DNA of 64,000 bases. It comes from Planctomycetota bacterium. Its GTDB lineage: Bacteria; Planctomycetota; Planctomycetia; Gemmatales; Gemmataceae. Position 1 is the stretch's first letter; every line of letters begins with the position of its first letter. Position numbers and translations under genes: made by a program. The notes beneath the pieces were generated by a model. That model was not told where the DNA came from and made no database searches. It was given only the letters and a program-made list of their open reading frames with translations. The stretch covers positions 1 through 64,000 of the forward strand of contig JAIOPV010000041.1 of NCBI GenBank assembly GCA_021413735.1, in the 5' to 3' direction. Shown here in pieces: positions 5,189-13,084 of the stretch.

Positions 5189-6703
5189 TTGGCTACCACT
5201 CCCGCACACAACCGACTGCGAATCCTGTTCGTGGATGACGAAGCTCCACTGCGGGAATTCATGCGGACGGAGTTGCCCCGCCTCGGGCACGAGATCACGG
5301 TTTGCCAGGATAGCAAATCTGGCATCGAAGCCGTCAAGAAAGGCGTGTTCGACGCCGCGATCCTTGACATGCGCATGGAACACGACCGCGCCGGTCTGCA
5401 AGTTCTCGCGGCGCTGAAGCAAGTCTCGCCGGACACCGAAGCCGTCATCATGACCGGCTACGGCAGCACCGAAACGGCTGTCGAAGCTCTCCGTCTCGGC
5501 GCGTTCGACTACCTGACGAAGCCGTGCAAGCTCACGGACATCGAGGCATTGCTGCTTCGGATTCAGGAAAAGCGCCGGCTGAAGAACAAGACTGCCGCGC
5601 TCGAAAGCCGCGTTCAGGCGATGGAAGGCCCGCCCGGACTCATCGGCAGCAGTCCTGCGATGATCCCGGTTCAGCAGTTCATCGACCGCATCGGACCAAC
5701 GGACGGCCGTTGCCTGATTACCGGCGAAACGGGCACGGGCAAGGAAGTCGTCGCTCGCAATCTGTACCTGAAGAGCAAACGGGCCGACATGCCGTTCGTG
5801 CCGGTGAACTGCGGTTCGCTGAGCCAGAACCTTGCCGAGAGCCAGTTATTCGGGCATCGCAAGGGTGCGTTCACGGGTGCGGACCGCGACCACAAGGGTT
5901 TCTTCGAGGTCGCGAACGGTGGCACCGTGTTCCTCGACGAACTCGGCGAACTCGACAAGAACATTCAGGTGAAACTGCTGCGATTCTTGGAATCGGGCGA
6001 GATTCAGCGGCTCGGCGACAACCACCCGATCATGGTAGACGTGCGAGTCGTGTGCGCCACGAACAAGGACTTGCGGCAGATGATTGCCGACGGCCAGTTC
6101 CGCGAGGACTTGCTGTTCCGGCTGAATATGTTCCACATTCACCTGCCGCCGCTGCGGGATCGTCGCGAAGACATCCCCGACTTGGCCCGGCATGCCCTGG
6201 CTCGCCATGCGAAGCGCCCGATTGATACGGTGGCGCACCTGCTGACGCCGGCCGCGTTGCAGATGATGGTTCACTATCACTGGCAGGGCAACGTGCGTGA
6301 GTTGGTGAACGCGATGGAGTATGCGTGGATCGTGTCGGGTGGCCAGGCGATTGGTCCTGAGCATTTGCCGCACGACGTGCGAAACCCGCGTCTGGCCTCG
6401 GTGCCGCTGACCGTGCCAATCGCAACTCCGCAGCATGCACCGGCTCCATCGAGTTATGGCTCGGCACCGACAACGCTGCCATTCCCGACGGGTGGAATGC
6501 AGTCGGCACCGTTGCCTGCTGCTCCGGCGGGTGCGGGTGGCAAGTCGCTGGCAGACGTGGAAATGGAGTACATTCTGCAGGTGTACGCGAAGAACGGCAT
6601 GAACAAGCAGGCGACGTCGGTGGAACTCGGCATCAGCCTGAAGACGCTTTACAACAAGCTCCACAAGTACGAGGAAGAACGCCGCCCCCGTGCTGCGGGG
6701 TGA
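5189..6703 (+). CDS. Sigma-54-dependent response regulator (NtrC family)
   Basis: This 504-residue transcription activator should be phosphorylated by the kinase just upstream. The TTG at 5189 is chosen because GGAG (5178-5181) lies 7 bases before it and because the frame upstream only translates repeat sequence. The receiver domain (about residues 10-125) has the acidic pair DD16-17, phospho-acceptor D60 in ILDMRM, and K111. The AAA+ domain has Walker A GETGTGKE (179-186), the sigma-54 contact loop GAFTGA (226-231) and Walker B VFLDELGEL. A Pro/Ala-rich linker leads to a Fis-type HTH at the C-terminus. The last 67 bases are one arm of the duplicated att site of the integrated element. The copy in the gene differs by one silent base from the copy at 13018-13084, so the protein is intact. 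Confidence 0.95.
   Translation: MATTPAHNRLRILFVDDEAPLREFMRTELPRLGHEITVCQDSKSGIEAVKKGVFDAAILDMRMEHDRAGLQVLAALKQVSPDTEAVIMTGYGSTETAVEALRLGAFDYLTKPCKLTDIEALLLRIQEKRRLKNKTAALESRVQAMEGPPGLIGSSPAMIPVQQFIDRIGPTDGRCLITGETGTGKEVVARNLYLKSKRADMPFVPVNCGSLSQNLAESQLFGHRKGAFTGADRDHKGFFEVANGGTVFLDELGELDKNIQVKLLRFLESGEIQRLGDNHPIMVDVRVVCATNKDLRQMIADGQFREDLLFRLNMFHIHLPPLRDRREDIPDLARHALARHAKRPIDTVAHLLTPAALQMMVHYHWQGNVRELVNAMEYAWIVSGGQAIGPEHLPHDVRNPRLASVPLTVPIATPQHAPAPSSYGSAPTTLPFPTGGMQSAPLPAAPAGAGGKSLADVEMEYILQVYAKNGMNKQATSVELGISLKTLYNKLHKYEEERRPRAAG
6637..6703. other. attL direct repeat of the integrative element
   Basis: These 67 bases, ending with the regulator's stop codon, recur at 13018-13084. The first 57 are identical, then T6694 replaces C13075, then nine more match. 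Homology stops right after the TGA and just before 6637. Both copies encode the same peptide LKTLYNKLHKYEEERRPRAA plus Gly. Confidence 0.93.
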
Positions 6704-6788: not shown

Positions 6789-6829
6789 TGGTGACCTTTT
6801 CGCCGTTTCTGGTGACCTTCCTGGTGACC
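6789..6829. promoter_or_regulatory. Left arm-type integrase sites (three TGGTGACC repeats)
   Basis: TGGTGACC occurs at 6789-6796, 6810-6817 and 6822-6829 in direct orientation, each followed by TT. The last two starts are 12 bases apart. The same octamer occurs twice, again 12 bases apart, near the right end (12958 and 12970). Repeats shared by the two ends and lying inside the att repeats are what arm-binding sites of a tyrosine integrase or its accessory protein look like. Confidence 0.7.
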
Positions 6830-6859: not shown

Positions 6860-7024
6860 TCAACCGCCCGACTTCTCTTCCATTTTCTGCTTCAGCCAAT
6901 CGTTCAGTTCCTTCCGCTCGTATTCCGGTTCACAGATTTTCTGAAACCAGTCTTCACCCATAATTGGCATCCAGTGATTGAAACCATGTTCTGATAACCA
7001 TCGCTGGAAAACGGCTGTCTTGTC
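6860..7024 (-). other. +1-frame extension of the replication gene (54 codons)
   Basis: This reading frame opens directly at the TGA that ends the replication protein (7023-7025) and runs 54 codons to a TGA at 6860. It has no good start of its own: the first ATG (6968-6970) is 18 codons in and lacks a Shine-Dalgarno site. The predicted peptide begins DKTAVFQRWLSEHGF and ends KQKMEEKSGG, is charged and looks like normal protein. The junction carries the prfB-type slip signal AGG GGG CTG CTT TGA C (7022-7037), so I read it as the tail of a frameshifted 912-residue product. Alternatives are a separate 36-codon gene or the displaced end of the ancestral gene. Confidence 0.6.
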
Positions 7025-7037
7025 AAAGCAGCCCCCT
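7022..7037 (-). promoter_or_regulatory. RF2/prfB-like +1 programmed frameshift signal
   Basis: On the minus strand the last codons are AGG GGG CTG CTT TGA followed by C. The E. coli prfB site is AGG GGG TAT CTT TGA C. The internal Shine-Dalgarno-like AGGGGG, the 3-base spacer, the slippery CTT, and the weak stop context TGA-C all match in identity and spacing. Slippage of CTT onto TTT would place GAC next and continue for 54 codons. Confidence 0.65.
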
Positions 7038-9596
7038 CTCCTGTTCGCAGTTCGCAGATTCGCCAGCCTGAGCGTCGGTAAGTGGCATTACGGGGTTGGG
7101 GGTTGTTGGGATTGAGAGATCAGATTCGGCAGCCAGAGAACCCGGCGAACGGGCGAACTGCGAACCTGCGAACGATGCCTCTTTCATTGGTTCTTCGTTC
7201 TTGTCGGTTTCCGAACGTGCGAACTGCGAACTGCGAACGTCATCCGGCAAAGTCTCTTTCGGAACATTTGAACAATCAGAAGATTGGCTTGTCGCTTCGC
7301 TGTTCGCTGTTCGCACGTTCGCAGTGTTCGGCGGCTCGGCAGGCTCAACAGATTTCACGGAGAAGACTGCCGAGACTGTTGAGCCACCCCCACCCGTGAA
7401 ACTGCCTGCCAAATACCATCGTCCGTTCATCTCCACGATGAAGCCGCTATCAGTCAACAACTTGAACAGTCCGTTCAGTTCTTCGGCCTTCATCTTGTTG
7501 TTGAACAGCCCATGAGCATCACGCTTGATGATTCCATCCTCTCGGTTCTTGATGAGGTTCAACAGTTTGACGTGATCCGGTTCAGGGAACCTGTGGTCAT
7601 CGTCTTCAGATGAACCATTCGGCGATGTCGGAGGCTTGCCACCGAAGACAGCGAAAGCCGACTTGTCGCAGTAATCCACGAAGGCAAGGGCGGCTTTCAG
7701 GTGCAGCAGTCCGATGACCTTTGCGCCATCCAACACCGCATACACCATTGCCACTTTGAGGCAGTGGACGGAGAGCCGTGCGACGGCTTTGCCGTAATCG
7801 CCTTCTCGCTGCTGTTCCAACCGCCGGTATTCGCCTTCCCATATTTCGGCGGCTTGCCCATCCAGTGACAACGGGCTGTCAGTCTTTGCCGCATTCAGAG
7901 CCGCTGAGAGCCGAGGAGCGAACCGCTTTCCTTCGGAAAAATAGTCCCCCCCGGTGGGCAGGTATCTTCGCCGTTCGCAGTTCACAAGCAGGAAGCGGTT
8001 GATGGTTCCGTTGACCAATTCGGTTCGTCCCTTTGTCAGTTCCCGGAGTTCTTCGCCGGTAATCATCCCGACGATGCTGACGTGCGGTTCTCGGCATCCG
8101 TAGCGGTTCTCTCCTCGGTTCATCACGGACAACGGCTTACCGTCGTAAGCAGAGCGGATGAGGGGCGAAAGGATGCTGTTCTCGGCACGGCAAAGTCTCA
8201 GCGGCTTCGCCCATTCTTCCTCTACGACGAGAAGCCGCTTGTCAGGTATTCCGGTGTCATCGCCGATTGCGTCTCGGATGCGATAGACGAATCCCTGTCC
8301 GCTGCCGAAGCCGCCTTCAACGCAGGATGCGTCCCATTCGGGCATCGCTGTCGCAAGCAAAGATTCTGCGACATCCTGGCAGGTTCCCTTTCGGGAACTG
8401 GTGTTGCCGACGAGTAGCACGAACAAGTTTGCCGAATGCCGTCTTCCGATTTGGTGATGCGTTTGTCTGCCGAGAGCATTCCCGACACCAGTCAGCAGGC
8501 AAGCCAGAATGCCCGCTGGATCGGCTTCGGTGAGCGGTTCCACGGCTCTCACGAATTCGCCGAGAATGCCGTGGTATGCCTCATCAGGTAAGCCAAAAGA
8601 TTGAATTACGGGGGTGGGGTTGTCAGGCTGAGATTTCAGGGCTTGCGAACCTGCGAACGGCGAATGGCGAACAGTGGGTGTTGTCTTCTCACCAGTTTCA
8701 ATCGGATCGGTTGCTTGCAGTTCTTCAAACTGAGCGTCTTGCTTTCGGGCGAAGAACGTCACCTTCTTTTCCATCTCATTGGCGGAATATGGCGGTTCCT
8801 GTTCGTCAGCCCATCGCAACCCATCCGCCAAAATCTGTTCACGAGTGAAGCCGTTGCCGAGCATTGAACCGATGACAGCATTCACCGAGTCGTTCCGTTT
8901 TCCGGATTCCACAAAGCCGAGATCGGCAAAAGTATCACCACGGCTGATTGTCCCCCGCATCGGGTTGAACGGTTCTGGCGTGGGAACTGCGGTTGTTTGC
9001 CGCGCAGCGGCAAACAACCCTTCTGCTTTCAACGGCTCGGCTGACATCAGCGACAACAACCAATCCGGCATATCCGCCAACGGTGTTTCCGGTTGAATCA
9101 ACCACGAATACTTACCTCCTGAATGATGGTTTGACGGAGGCACAATCACGTCCCCACCGCAGAGCAGTTCGGCTCCTGAAACGATGGGCAGTTTCTCTTT
9201 CGTTGTTCGCAACTGAGCAGGACGTTTGAAATAGAAGTGCCGTCCTTTACTGCCGCTCTCGGCTGTCGGCGTTGCTGGCATCTTGCCGTGTTCTGCTTCC
9301 CATTTTGCCAGTTGCTCCATTCCGCCATTCCGGTTTTCAATGTCGAGAACAACGAAATTCTCGACACGAATGCCGACATTTACGGCAGAGGAAGGAAACC
9401 ACAGTTTCAGTTTCTCAGCATCGGTGGTGGCATCCTTTCCGCCGTGAGGAACCATTTTGCCCCACGGATGCTTGCCCGGCTTACATCCTGCCATTCCATT
9501 GCACCAACATTTGCCATTCGTCTGTATGCCCCATACTGGATAGACACGCCAACCGATGCCAGAATATCGCAGGGCAGATTTCAGATTCTCATTCAC
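7023..9596 (-). CDS. PrimPol + DUF3987-type replication protein of the element
   Basis: This is the largest gene of the element and probably starts its replication. I place the start at GTG 9596, with AAGGA 7 bases upstream, giving 857 residues in the zero frame; a TTG at 9632 would add 12. The N-terminal ~200 residues look like a bifunctional primase-polymerase: GWRVYPVWGI, GKHPWGK, VGIRVENFVVLDIE and GSKGRHFYFKRP. A linker holds repeat-derived sequence. The central and C-terminal part resembles DUF3987/YfjI-like proteins: FVLLVGNTSSRKGT is a Walker A-like loop, with LLVVEEEW, VSIVGMITGEEL and INRFLLV downstream. A winged-helix-like region (ending about LTDSGFIVEMNGRWYL) precedes a low-complexity tail encoded by heptad repeats. 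The gene stops at a prfB-like frameshift signal. Confidence 0.8.
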   Translation of the reverse strand: MNENLKSALRYSGIGWRVYPVWGIQTNGKCWCNGMAGCKPGKHPWGKMVPHGGKDATTDAEKLKLWFPSSAVNVGIRVENFVVLDIENRNGGMEQLAKWEAEHGKMPATPTAESGSKGRHFYFKRPAQLRTTKEKLPIVSGAELLCGGDVIVPPSNHHSGGKYSWLIQPETPLADMPDWLLSLMSAEPLKAEGLFAAARQTTAVPTPEPFNPMRGTISRGDTFADLGFVESGKRNDSVNAVIGSMLGNGFTREQILADGLRWADEQEPPYSANEMEKKVTFFARKQDAQFEELQATDPIETGEKTTPTVRHSPFAGSQALKSQPDNPTPVIQSFGLPDEAYHGILGEFVRAVEPLTEADPAGILACLLTGVGNALGRQTHHQIGRRHSANLFVLLVGNTSSRKGTCQDVAESLLATAMPEWDASCVEGGFGSGQGFVYRIRDAIGDDTGIPDKRLLVVEEEWAKPLRLCRAENSILSPLIRSAYDGKPLSVMNRGENRYGCREPHVSIVGMITGEELRELTKGRTELVNGTINRFLLVNCERRRYLPTGGDYFSEGKRFAPRLSAALNAAKTDSPLSLDGQAAEIWEGEYRRLEQQREGDYGKAVARLSVHCLKVAMVYAVLDGAKVIGLLHLKAALAFVDYCDKSAFAVFGGKPPTSPNGSSEDDDHRFPEPDHVKLLNLIKNREDGIIKRDAHGLFNNKMKAEELNGLFKLLTDSGFIVEMNGRWYLAGSFTGGGGSTVSAVFSVKSVEPAEPPNTANVRTANSEATSQSSDCSNVPKETLPDDVRSSQFARSETDKNEEPMKEASFAGSQFARSPGSLAAESDLSIPTTPNPVMPLTDAQAGESANCEQERGLL
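7043..7065. repeat. TTCGCAG heptad array at the end of the replication gene
   Basis: Tandem GTTCGCAG-type heptamers sit directly upstream, in transcription sense, of the frameshift signal. The complementary array GCGAACTGCGAAC at about 7145-7170 could pair with it. Confidence 0.6.
7088..7400. repeat. Heptad module A inside the replication gene
   Basis: The module has G-rich and C-rich inverted ends: TTACGGGGTTGGGGG at 7088 and CCACCCCCACCCGTGAA ending at 7400. Inside lie heptad arrays in opposite orientation, GCGAAC types at 7145-7175 and 7211-7240 and TTCGC types at 7296-7336. It is translated as part of the replication protein and supplies the low-complexity tail with motifs such as SQFARS and RTANSEA. 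Related modules lie at 8606, 10427 and 11612. Confidence 0.6.
8606..8692. repeat. Heptad module B (partial) in the linker of the replication gene
   Basis: TTACGGGGGTGGGGTTGTC starts the module and is followed by GCGAACCTGCGAACGGCGAA heptads. The C-rich right end seen in the other modules is missing. It codes for the linker between the PrimPol and DUF3987-like parts of the protein. Confidence 0.5.
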
Positions 9597-9620
9597 TTGG
9601 AAATCCTTATCCAAAGAGGA

Positions 9621-9645
9621 ACTGCCTACCAAATTGATAGGCAGT
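9621..9645. terminator. Stem-loop between two element genes
   Basis: ACTGCCTA (9621-9628) pairs with TAGGCAGT (9638-9645) around a 9-base loop, followed on the plus strand by TTTTTG. It lies just upstream of the replication gene on the minus strand. It could attenuate leftward readthrough or end an unrecognised rightward transcript. Confidence 0.4.
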
Positions 9646-9671
9646 TTTTGTTATTGACGCTAGGCAACTAC

Positions 9672-10073
9672 TTACGACTGATTTGGCGACAGCATCGCCT
9701 GAGTGACTTCAACCCAGTTCTTATTCGGTTTGTTGCCCACGGTCACCAGATACTTCTTTCCTACGCACGCTGACAAGTCGTATTCAGCAGTTGGTTGCCT
9801 CCCTAGCAACCAAGAGATGACTGTATACTGTCTGCTCTTCACGCTGTTCGCCGTTGATGTCTCCGTGTTCACCAACTTGCCTTTGTGTTCGCCGTCAGAG
9901 ATTTCCCAATTGAACCGGACTGACGGAAACTGCCTCTTGCCTTTGCCCTCCATATCGCCTTCGTGCTCTGGCAGATACTCGGCGGTCTTGAACACCGCCT
10001 GATAGCCACCGCAGGGAACAGTGCCACTCTGTGACACTGTTCCTCGCATCGGATTATAAGTTTCAGCGGTCAT
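9672..10073 (-). CDS. Small element protein, possibly ssDNA-binding (DUF669-like)
   Basis: The 133-residue product starts at an ATG that overlaps the stop of the upstream HTH gene by four bases (10070-10073), so the two are translationally coupled. The sequence includes FPSVRFNWEISDGEHKGKLV and later SACVGKKYLVTVGNK. This alternating beta pattern resembles phage DUF669 proteins, which accompany replication modules and are thought to bind single-stranded DNA. Its N-terminus YNPMRGTVSQSG closely matches FNPMRGTISRGD in the linker of the neighbouring replication protein. A 9-bp inverted repeat (10015-10043) sits inside the coding region. The assignment is tentative; the position between an excisionase-like gene and a primase gene supports a replication role. 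Confidence 0.65.
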   Translation of the reverse strand: MTAETYNPMRGTVSQSGTVPCGGYQAVFKTAEYLPEHEGDMEGKGKRQFPSVRFNWEISDGEHKGKLVNTETSTANSVKSRQYTVISWLLGRQPTAEYDLSACVGKKYLVTVGNKPNKNWVEVTQAMLSPNQS

Positions 10074-10276
10074 ACATGTTTCCCATTGTTGTTTATATTC
10101 TGAACTGTATCAGGCTGAAACCGCCACTGCTTTCCAACACGGATAGCATTCAGTTCACCATTCGCCAAAAGTCTACGAACTGTGCTTTCAGAGACGGATA
10201 GCCGTAAGGCTATCTCCTTCACTGATAACATTTCATCTTCGCTCCTACCTGTCCTCCAGTTGTTTTTGATACTCAT
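10070..10276 (-). CDS. Excisionase-like helix-turn-helix protein
   Basis: The 68-residue product contains the MerR/excisionase-type winged helix: LSVKEIALRLSVSESTVRRL, then NGELNAIRVGKQWRF. Such proteins direct excision of integrated elements or control their genes. It starts 22 bases downstream of a good -35/-10 pair (10298-10326) and overlaps the next gene by ATGA. The place in the element, beside the replication genes and away from the integrase, fits a regulator or recombination directionality factor. A DNA-binding role is clear; excision itself is inference. Confidence 0.8.
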   Translation of the reverse strand: MSIKNNWRTGRSEDEMLSVKEIALRLSVSESTVRRLLANGELNAIRVGKQWRFQPDTVQNINNNGKHV

Positions 10277-10297
10277 ATCTATTCACCACCAGTCAAG

Positions 10298-10326
10298 ATT
10301 ATTGACGAGTATTATTCCGTTTTCAA
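10298..10326 (-). promoter_or_regulatory. Sigma-70-like promoter for the element's replication genes
   Basis: On the minus strand TTGAAA (10326-10321) and AATAAT (10303-10298) are 17 bases apart, each one base off consensus. Initiation near 10291 would give a 15-base leader before the HTH gene. It is in the most AT-rich part of the element. Confidence 0.55.
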
Positions 10327-10426
10327 GATATGTTTTCGCACAAGCATTTTATGTCAAATTTGTAAGGGCGAGCGTTTAGCAAATCACAGAGTGCGCCGAA
10401 TTTGTTGCGTTCCTGTCTGAGACTGA

Positions 10427-10796
10427 TTCACGGGGGGGTGGGGCAGGTGAAAGTTTTTTATATACTTTTGTATACTAATATGATTTCGCCATAACTGACG
10501 AATTGTCAAGGGTATCGGCAGACCGATACCCTTTGAACTCGGCATCCTGCGCCGTGAATTGAGGGTGGCGAACAGCGAACAGCGAACGGTAAATTGTGTT
10601 TAGAGATGTTTGAAACACTGGAATCTGCCTTGTCTGTTCGGCGTTCGGCGTTCGCAGTGTTCGCAGGCAGATAGGAATTTTGATGGGGGCTGGTGGCAAG
10701 TTCGCAGTTCGCAGACTGCCCCGAATGGCGAACAATTGGAGAAGCAAGGAAGCGTTTCTTCTGCCTCAACCAAAAATCCTGAAGTGCCCCCCGTGA
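10427..10796. repeat. Heptad module C, intergenic
   Basis: Inverted ends TTCACGGGGGGGTGGGG and TGCCCCCCGTGA enclose an AT-rich stretch with TATACTTTTGTATA (about 10457-10472), an 11-bp stem (10508-10533), and heptad arrays in both orientations (10565-10590 against 10635-10670, and 10700-10735). It fills most of the 608-base gap between the HTH gene and the cargo gene. I see no convincing gene here. An AT-rich palindrome among repeats could be an origin or operator. Confidence 0.55.
10508..10533. terminator. 11-bp perfect stem-loop
   Basis: AAGGGTATCGG pairs perfectly with CCGATACCCTT around CAGA. It lies about 350 bases beyond the stop of the leftward cargo gene and upstream of the HTH gene. 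There is no long U run on the minus strand, so a terminator role is uncertain. Confidence 0.4.
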
Positions 10797-10884
10797 TGAG
10801 GATACACGAATGAGCAAATGGCAGTGGGGAGGCACAAAGCGAAGATCATTCAAGATGGGCAAACCGTCTACCTCGAACCGAATC

Positions 10885-11568
10885 TCAACTCTTTCCCAAA
10901 ATCAAATCAACTGCCCAACAGCCCCGAACGTGTTCACCCGGCTGTCGGCAATGGCTCAAAACGTCCTCGTTGTCGCAACCGGCGTCTTGAAGGGCGTCGG
11001 CAAGGATGGGCATTCGGTCGAAGGCACGGTCTTCGTAGATGCCTTGGGCGAGAGCGATGACATCTGACGTGAGCCATGACGGATCAGCCACGACGGGGCG
11101 GAAAGGGTTGCCGATAATGTCCCGCAGTAAACCCGCCTGCGCCTGATGATTCTCGTCATGCTTTCTTTCGTTAGTAACAGAAGAAGAAGCCGACGCATAC
11201 GCACGCAACAAGTCCGCATCACCCGCCCAGATGGGATCGCCCCGAAGATAACTGTCGTCATCTTGGAGAAGGTTTCTCGCTGCGCCAACGCACCACATCC
11301 TGGTATGTCTTTTCCGTTGGTTCAGTGCCAAGTATTCGGTCTTCATCTGCTCACGAAGCAGAGCAACTTCTTCGGTCGTGGCTTCGCCTTCAACAAGCCG
11401 TTCAGCGAGCATGACGGCCTCGCAACATTCCTCAATCGCCATTAGGCTCCGCAACCGTCGGCAGCAGGCAATACCGACCAACCGGAGTTTGCGGGGACTG
11501 AGTGTCCGCCCGAGGAAGTTGAACATTAGGTGCGGGGATTTCGCCGCCAACCATTCCGTTTCCGTCAT
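10885..11568 (-). CDS. Cargo gene: Gemmataceae 'HVRGCW' family protein
   Basis: The 227-residue product has the layout of a protein family that, from memory, is very abundant in Gemmata-type genomes. It has MTETEWLAAKSPHLMFNFL at the start, then RKLRLVGIACCRRLRSLM with a Cys pair, an Ala-rich middle, and QAGLLRDIIGNPFRPV. It ends with LADALQDAGCDNEDVLSHCR and HVRGCWAVDLILGK. No biochemical role is known to me. Here it is carried between the integrase and the replication genes of a mobile element, so it is cargo or helps maintain the element. An alanine-rich middle in other members is replaced by a more polar segment. Confidence 0.8.
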   Translation of the reverse strand: MTETEWLAAKSPHLMFNFLGRTLSPRKLRLVGIACCRRLRSLMAIEECCEAVMLAERLVEGEATTEEVALLREQMKTEYLALNQRKRHTRMWCVGAARNLLQDDDSYLRGDPIWAGDADLLRAYASASSSVTNERKHDENHQAQAGLLRDIIGNPFRPVVADPSWLTSDVIALAQGIYEDRAFDRMPILADALQDAGCDNEDVLSHCRQPGEHVRGCWAVDLILGKS

Positions 11569-11611
11569 CGCACGCCCTCATTCATTTCGGCTAATGTCCC
11601 CGGTGTCGGTA

Positions 11612-11835
11612 TAACGGGGTGGGGGTGTGGATTTGATTCCTGCTCCCGTGAGAACCTGCGAACGGCGAACCGTCAATCCCCCTTTAGCAGTCCTGCGAAT
11701 ATCCCGAAAACCGGTTTACCGAATGGCGTTCGCAGTTCGCACTGTTCGCAGGTTCGCAGCCCGATATTCCTTCTCACGATGTTCGCAGGTTCGCTGTTCG
11801 CAGTCGGCTATGAAATCTGCTACCCCACCCCGTAA
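11612..11835. repeat. Heptad module D, intergenic
   Basis: The ends TAACGGGGTGGGGGT (11612-11626) and TACCCCACCCCGTAA (11821-11835) are inverted repeats. Inside, GCGAACGGCGAAC (about 11658-11672) faces a long run of GTTCGCAG-type heptads (11727-11745 and about 11780-11810). It fills the gap between the cargo gene and the integrase. Confidence 0.6.
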
Positions 11836-11862
11836 AACTGTTCCGGATTATAAAGCCGAAAA

Positions 11863-11886
11863 CCCCAGCGGGCAAACCCGCTGGGG
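11863..11886 (-). terminator. Rho-independent terminator of the integrase gene
   Basis: A perfect 10-bp stem (CCCCAGCGGG with its complement) has a 4-base loop and on the minus strand is followed by TTTT. It lies 27 bases past the integrase stop codon. Confidence 0.75.
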
Positions 11887-11912
11887 TCTGCGAACGACGA
11901 ACAGCGAACAGA

Positions 11913-12929
11913 TTACCGCACCTTCCCCGCTGCTGCCCGAAGAACATCAACACGGCTCGTCAGGTGAGAGTAGTGCTTGTGAAGCATTGCCGTTCCGCTG
12001 TGTCCCAACAAAGCCGCTACAGTCGCATCAGGCACGCCGTTGACGAGAGCCGCAGTTGCGTAGGAATGCCGCATTGAATAGCAGACGATTGTCTTCGGCA
12101 GTCCGGCTTTCTTGCGGGCAACCTGAATGGCCTTCATCATCGTCCACCTTGTCCAGCGTCTGCCCAACTTATTGCGGAACAGCAAATCGCCACCAACGGC
12201 TTGCTCTCGGAACAGGACAACCGCTTCGGCGGACAGGAAGATGAGTCGTGGTTTGCCTGTTTTGCCTGATGTCTTGTGTTCCGTCAGGACGGCTACACCG
12301 CTCGTGAAATCCACGTCCTGAACCGTAAGCCGAGCCAGTTCTCCCGGTCGGCATCCTGTCAGCCACAAGCCCCGCAGGAACGGTTTGAAGGTGGCAGAAG
12401 AAGCGATATGTAGCCGAACGAACTCGGCATCAGTGAGAACTGCCGATGCCCCACGACTTCCGCACGGCGGCTTACGGATGCCATTCAAAGGATTTGCCGT
12501 CAATAACCCGGCACGAACCGCCCATCGGAAACAGGTGATGACGGACGTTAGAAAGGCATTCACTGTTGAGTTGCTGATGTTGGGACGACGTGCGAACTGT
12601 TCCACTTCCGGTGGCTTCAAACTGCTGCCAGTCCGTTCTCCGAACTGTTTGGCAAACCTGTTTAGAGCCGATTTCCAGACCGCCATCGTTTCCGGTTTCA
12701 CTCGTTCAACGGCATCAGTCAAGAAAGCCGCCACAATCGCTTTCACGACGATTTCGGCTTTCGGTTGAGGCTTTACCCTGTCTGCCGACATCAGCCGATA
12801 GAACGCATCCTGAGCGGCTTTCTTGCCGTCCTTCCCTTTCACGCCGAGACTGCGTTGTTTGCCATCCACCCACGCATACCAACCATCCTTCACCTTCCGA
12901 TACCACGGCTTTTCACTGTTCGTTCGCAT
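11913..12929 (-). CDS. int: Tyrosine recombinase / integrase
   Basis: The 338-residue enzyme should carry out site-specific integration of the element at the regulator's 3' end. It has an N-terminal arm-binding part (about 1-60), a core-binding SAM-like domain (about 60-155) and a catalytic domain. Catalytic residues visible are Arg194 in TGCRPGEL, a beta-hairpin Lys near 219 in EHKTSGKTGK, Arg287 in YSMRHSY, His310 in LLGHSG and the nucleophile Tyr320 in HKHYSHL. The first His of the usual HxxR box is Tyr284. The gene lies next to attR and reads away from it, with TGGTGACC sites between its start and attR. A terminator follows at 11863-11886. Confidence 0.95.
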   Translation of the reverse strand: MRTNSEKPWYRKVKDGWYAWVDGKQRSLGVKGKDGKKAAQDAFYRLMSADRVKPQPKAEIVVKAIVAAFLTDAVERVKPETMAVWKSALNRFAKQFGERTGSSLKPPEVEQFARRPNISNSTVNAFLTSVITCFRWAVRAGLLTANPLNGIRKPPCGSRGASAVLTDAEFVRLHIASSATFKPFLRGLWLTGCRPGELARLTVQDVDFTSGVAVLTEHKTSGKTGKPRLIFLSAEAVVLFREQAVGGDLLFRNKLGRRWTRWTMMKAIQVARKKAGLPKTIVCYSMRHSYATAALVNGVPDATVAALLGHSGTAMLHKHYSHLTSRVDVLRAAAGKVR

Positions 12930-12957: not shown

Positions 12958-12977
12958 TGGTGACCCGCTTGGTGACC
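12958..12977. promoter_or_regulatory. Right arm-type integrase sites (two TGGTGACC repeats)
   Basis: TGGTGACC at 12958-12965 and 12970-12977 have the same 12-base spacing as a pair at the left end. The second continues into TTCACCAA, making a short inverted repeat. They lie just upstream of the integrase start, so binding could also control its promoter. Confidence 0.68.
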
Positions 12978-13017: not shown

Positions 13018-13084
13018 CCTGAAGACGCTTTACAACAAGCTCCACAAGTACGAGGAAGAACGCCGCCCCCGTGCCGCGGGGTGA
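13018..13084. other. attR direct repeat of the integrative element
   Basis: This second copy of the regulator's last 67 bases has no upstream part of the gene and is not translated as a protein of its own. It is followed by the former downstream region of the regulator gene, leading to the membrane protein at 13160. Confidence 0.93.

Follow-up and report, generated by a model that had tools for sequence, protein, structure and literature searches.

Does the replication gene of a planctomycete mobile element carry a working version of the +1 frameshift site of prfB, the gene for release factor 2 (RF2), or a mere likeness of it? The question is raised by the 3′ end of an 869-codon open reading frame (ORF) in the window, by which is meant the whole 64,000-nucleotide stretch of DNA analysed here. 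The RF2 shift cassette consists, according to the available part of PMC12421855, of AGGGGG, a 3-nt spacer, CTT, TGA and C. A search of the whole window for AGGGGG-N3-CTTTGAC returned an exact match, AGGGGGCTGCTTTGAC, at positions 7037-7022 of the minus strand, and no other site at up to two mismatches, a tolerance at which shuffled sequences contain 1.37 sites on average. On that strand the gene ends ...GAA CAG GAG AGG GGG CTG CTT TGA C. The motif AGGGGG CTG CTT TGA C (7022..7037) is in frame with the ORF: the Shine-Dalgarno (SD)-like AGGGGG stands 3 bases ahead of CTT, CTT-TGA-C is read in the frame of the upstream coding sequence and the stop TGA occupies 7025-7023, as at a prfB site. The AGGGGG, 3-base spacer, CTT, TGA and C that the original prediction had described at this gene end are thus present exactly and in frame with the 869 codons. 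In the 9.8-Mb genome the motif is the single exact match, with four further places at one mismatch. The original prediction had not mentioned a second SD-like sequence, AGGAG (7038..7042, minus strand), which the sequence reads directly upstream of AGGGGG. In prfB, the sequence ahead of the SD is said in the legend of Figure 12 of PMC5009743 to be unable to pair with the anti-SD, whereas AGGAG at 7042-7038 should be able to do so. A promoter and terminator scan gave no prediction on the minus strand.

The replication gene and its mobile element

The ORF that ends in the motif (7023..9632, minus strand, TTG start as listed, ending ...ERGLL*) matches the Prim-Pol (PF09250, E 2.7e-30, 106.3 bits) and DUF3987 (PF13148, E 8.2e-17, 61.9 bits) families of Pfam, both above the cut-offs. 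It belongs to an integrated element of ~6.4 kb that lies between 67-nt direct repeats (99%) of the 3′ end of a sigma-54 response regulator gene, the attL-like repeat being the 3′ end of the gene (6637..6703, plus strand) and the attR-like repeat a copy of it (13018..13084, plus strand). Also on the minus strand are a tyrosine integrase (11913..12929; PF00589, E 1.6e-21; phrog_1, E 7.8e-50), a helix-turn-helix, excisionase-like protein (10070..10276; HTH_17, E 1.5e-11), a 133-aa protein without a Pfam match that weakly resembles a phage ssDNA-binding family (9672..10073; E 0.033) and a 227-aa protein without a Pfam or PHROG match (10885..11568). The integrase gene stands between direct repeats of a target-gene end, the mark of an integrative mobile element, and no structural gene was found among the five predicted proteins of the element that were tested. 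The same integrase, helix-turn-helix/excisionase-like protein, PrimPol-DUF3987 gene and direct repeats of a 3′ gene end are shared with small integrative elements, and the element presumably resembles those of satellite or ICE type that have a tyrosine integrase and a PrimPol-type replication gene. A second integrase and PrimPol-DUF3987 pair exists in the same genome (L038, G000:C130); its PrimPol gene also ends CTT TGA C, with no SD and only 25 open +1 codons at that gene end.

The reading frame beyond the stop

After CTT, the +1 frame stays open for 54 codons, as had been claimed. This extension (DKTAVFQ...EEKSGG; 6863..7024, minus strand) runs to a stop at 6862-6860 and has its first ATG at 6970. 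Upstream, a stop near 7087 closes the same frame, and the sequence from there to the motif reads without ATG, GTG or TTG; the extension can thus be translated only after a shift or from an internal start, ATG 6970 for example. Open stretches of this length are unremarkable in themselves, since a first-order model of the local composition gives 54 open codons a chance probability of P = 0.19.

The original prediction had further held that the frame past the stop looks like normal protein, which is weakly supported by the codon usage of the element and unsupported by that of the host. With a host table made from the long ORFs of the window, a mechanical set that overlaps in places, 28% of the wrong-frame open stretches score as high over 36 codons (n=3498) and 31% over 54 codons (n=2478), so that the extension does no better than wrong frames. 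With a table made from the element genes, these fractions fall to 4.6% (36 codons, n=480) and 1.1% (54 codons, n=285), in overlapping windows whose counts are not independent and with a table that rests on few codons, and the extension scores no lower than the median of true-frame stretches. The G+C content is 0.537 in the element versus 0.598 in the window and the element table is better suited to the element; by this table, a coding character of the extension is weakly supported. Mononucleotide shuffles reached the score of the extension at a frequency of 0.0002 with the element table and in 0/5000 cases in a second test. Much of this signal comes from ATG 6970 onwards, since the score of the codons from there was reached by 0/5000 shuffles versus 555/5000 for codons 1-18; by the element table, codons 1-18 are also coding-like (0.168). 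Single-sequence structure prediction folded the extension into three helices with a mean pLDDT of 71.6, a value that does not discriminate because the −1-frame control reached 67.0.

Relatives of the extension were sought by a tblastn-type search. Among the genomes of the order, the matches were its own genome and, at a chance-level E of 0.0075, the genome G071, where the match is antisense to an ORF that resembles, by eye, elongation factor G. Six of the 392 genomes of the phylum, besides its own, gave chance-level matches (E 0.017-0.038). No relative was confirmed in the genome and viral contigs, and the phage and plasmid searches gave three records at E 0.4 or worse and seven at E 2 or worse, respectively.

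Homologues, chance and the prfB gene of the host

Homologues of the PrimPol protein were found in 50 of the 102 genomes of the order and, at E 1e-40 or better, in 13 of the 392 of the phylum. A single-protein scan of IMG/VR for close PrimPol relatives found none; an alignment query of the same collection gave 99 loci, of which the best 80, mostly distant, were taken, and the GTDB contigs held one relative, the distant locus L111. Gene ends were read when the match reached query residue 540 and the stop lay inside the fetched DNA, which gave 88 distinct ends from the order, the phylum and IMG/VR (best 80 of 99 loci). AGGGGG-N3-CTTTGAC occurs in 0/88 of these ends. One of them, that of L038, has CTT TGA C without AGGGGG, and one more has TTT TGA C. 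The closest homologue, L007, is 63% identical over residues 343-675 and its gene ends differently. The original prediction had looked to homologues for conservation of the motif and of the frame downstream, and this expectation was disappointed on both counts, in a set of distant homologues. Most homologues end shortly past the winged-helix region, at query residue ~735, and the C-terminal tail of the element protein (7027..7399, minus strand) is non-conserved and repeat-bearing. Conservation is lost past residue ~745, and the site thus falls where the homologues offer no useful comparison. With 88 distant homologues and an unconserved tail, the motif is not a feature of the family, and shifting in this one element is not thereby disproved; non-conservation is weak evidence here, close relatives of the element being absent from the comparison.

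How often should such a site arise by chance? CTT-TGA-C closes 2 of 277 mechanical gene ends of the window and a set of further loci (this PrimPol gene and L038), and AGGGGG has a frequency of 2.5e-4 per position. The full motif is thus expected at ~1-2e-6 per gene end, which corresponds, with estimated gene numbers, to ~1e-4 per window, 0.01 in this genome and 0.5-1 in the 102 genomes of the order. In those 102 genomes there are six exact AGGGGG sites, of which only that of the element closes an ORF of >100 codons, and reversed-pattern controls are as frequent as the pattern. The motif is striking in one window and not beyond chance across many genomes or windows; over a large scan a chance origin is likely, while for a single genome the site is unusual. 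The exact prfB 16-mer was also found at seven places in IMG/VR, none of which gave any sign of being a shift site. At four of them (L228, L230, L231 and L233) +1 is the coding frame and reads the 16-mer as plain GGIFD codons, with no shift at the motif, and at the other three (L227, L229 and L232) the 16-mer lies in DNA that looks noncoding by eye; L231 and L233 are locally identical, as are L227 and L232. Two of these places were considered as second cases of shifting and rejected: L228 needs no shift, its +1 frame being open from the ATG to the end of the protein, and in L230 the frame breaks upstream of the 16-mer, at a G8 run. Both 16-mers (L228, 4902-4917; L230, 10697-10712) lie in genes for phage-type DNA methyltransferases. 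Long G runs (G8 or more) occur in these genes, which are possibly phase-variable or assembly artefacts.

In the host prfB (L054), CTT TGA C closes the first frame and the rest of RF2 is encoded in the +1 frame, so that the gene reads as needing a +1 shift, and the 16S tail has CCTCC, a normal, intact anti-SD. Since the host prfB reads as shifting at CTTTGAC, this slippery half of the cassette should be functional in the host, and a +1 shift at the element site is physically plausible. The 31 prfB loci of the order (L054, L080-L109) gave 26 readable CTTTGA sites, with no site in L097 and four loci that could not be parsed. C follows CTTTGA in 25 of the 26 and AGGGGG precedes it in none; the usual hexamer is CGGGAC or CGAGAC (CGGGGG in L081), and the usual form is CGGGAC-TCT (or AGT)-CTTTGAC, despite the normal anti-SD of the host. 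The element motif therefore matches the consensus of other bacteria, and does so better than the prfB of its own host. The string 'planctomycet' does not occur in the available text of PMC12421855.

We favour, at about an even chance of being right, the reading of the motif as an incidental prfB look-alike at the unconserved end of the PrimPol-DUF3987 gene that the 6.4-kb integrative element carries. On this view, the purine-rich AGGAGAGGGGG would have arisen beside the GCGAAC-type repeats of the element, in a gene whose last bases are CTT TGA C by coincidence. The majority of ribosomes should then terminate at TGA, and some may slip to +1 at a low level, since the needed parts are present in the sequence and the prfB of the host reads as shifting at CTTTGAC. 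No selected role of the longer protein is evident, and the site is most likely unselected. This reading appears supported by the 0/88 homologue ends, by the lack of relatives of the extension and by one site observed in the order where 0.5-1 is expected. The prfB sites of the order, 0/26 of which have AGGGGG, the AGGAG upstream, the viral 16-mers read as GGIFD and the P of 0.19 for the open run would all point the same way. Counting against it are the ~0.01 sites expected in this genome, the PrimPol tail, which is open for >120 codons ahead of the motif, the 1.1% of 285 wrong-frame stretches that score as high as the extension and its shuffle scores of 0.0002 and 0 of 5000. Read in this way, the case shows how easily an exact cassette arises by chance, as do the viral 16-mers in GGIFD codons or in noncoding-looking DNA.

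Other readings of the site

It is possible, and in our judgement unlikely, that the site is a programmed prfB-type +1 frameshift by which some of the ribosomes would add a helical extension of 54 residues to PrimPol, and would do so more often when RF2 is scarce. AGGGGG would pair with the anti-SD and create tension, the tRNA-Leu would slip from CTT to TTT, and the slip would compete with RF2 at TGAC. Every part of the cassette is present in order and spacing, the host prfB reads as using CTTTGAC with the anti-SD intact, and the extension is coding-like by the element table and is modelled as three helices (pLDDT 71.6). Against this stand the absence of the motif from all 88 homologue ends and of relatives of the extension, the 31% of 2478 wrong-frame stretches that score as high by the host table, the fold, matched nearly by its −1-frame control, and the AGGAG directly upstream, which competes and may hold the anti-SD in another register, something that prfB is said to avoid (PMC5009743, in the part available). 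An equally doubtful extension of this reading is that the mobile element took up or evolved an RF2-sensing cassette, so that low RF2 would yield extended PrimPol and the replication of the element would be coupled to the state of translation in the host. We know of no RF2-sensing frameshift outside prfB, and a shift at this site, if real and used, would be the first. In the available parts of the sources, all CUU-stop +1 sites of RECODE belong to prfB (PMC10885494), which also counts against a programmed shift, and the 428 frameshifted prfB genes of GeneTack form a single cluster (PMC3711429).

The comparison with known systems is likewise divided. The element has the AGGGGG, 3-nt spacer, CTT, TGA and C of the prfB consensus (PMC12421855, available part), in frame with the upstream ORF as in prfB. 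The prfB site, however, lies near codon 26, whereas that of the element is reached at codon 869, in a replication gene, and in the element, unlike in prfB, it is the short product that would be functional. The element further differs from prfB in the AGGAG before its SD and in the lack of conservation of its motif, and the order's own prfB genes lack AGGGGG. The phage PSA, as described in the available part of PMC5009743, is alike in being a mobile element that lengthens a protein at its C terminus through a +1 shift close to or at the stop; it differs in that its shifts take place on a proline codon in structural genes and are experimentally supported.

Somewhat less probable again is that the extension is a remnant, once read otherwise, with PrimPol or as another gene, and parted from its frame by an indel or an assembly error, the likeness to prfB being accidental. 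The G5 run inside the motif, one of 13 G or C runs of at least 5 in the repeat-bounded element, and the neighbouring repeats, of which those of TGCGAAC type end few bases upstream of the motif, are likely places for indels, and the coding-like score by the element table would fit. On the other hand, nothing resembling the extension follows in any homologue, and a full shift cassette exactly at the junction would be left unexplained.

Least probable, and rather improbable on the whole, is that AGGAGAGGGGG serves as the ribosome-binding site of a small coupled downstream gene, which would start at TTG 7026 or further on, for example at ATG 6970. In its favour, a 40-codon −1-frame ORF (6904..7026, minus strand), possibly a reinitiation ORF, has its TTG at 7026 overlapping the stop (TTGA) at SD distance behind AGGAG/AGGGGG, and much of the coding signal comes from ATG 6970 onwards (0/5000 shuffles versus 555/5000). 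Against it, the 40-codon ORF is poorly coding-like (codon score −0.509), and ATG 6970 has no clear SD and follows codons 1-18, themselves coding-like by the element table (0.168). The closest homologue (L007/L041) does have an open +1 ORF with a GTG inside that overlaps the PrimPol end, but this ORF shows no relationship to the extension (score 19, versus 23.2 on average for shuffled sequences) and lacks a Pfam match.

Apart from the question of the shift, the element is rich in short repeats. GCGAAC/GTTCGC repeats occur in both orientations from 7043 to 12928, some of them within the last 110 codons of the PrimPol ORF; TGCGAAC is present 27 times in the element (4.19 per kb) versus 0.49 per kb elsewhere in the window, and 8 of the 12 genome-wide sites of TGCGAACNGCGAAC fall in the element. 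These repeats are possibly iterons, or a repeat that has spread within the element. Near the opposite ends of the element, TGGTGACC is found three times at 6789-6829 and twice at 12958-12977, and these copies may be arm sites of the integrase.
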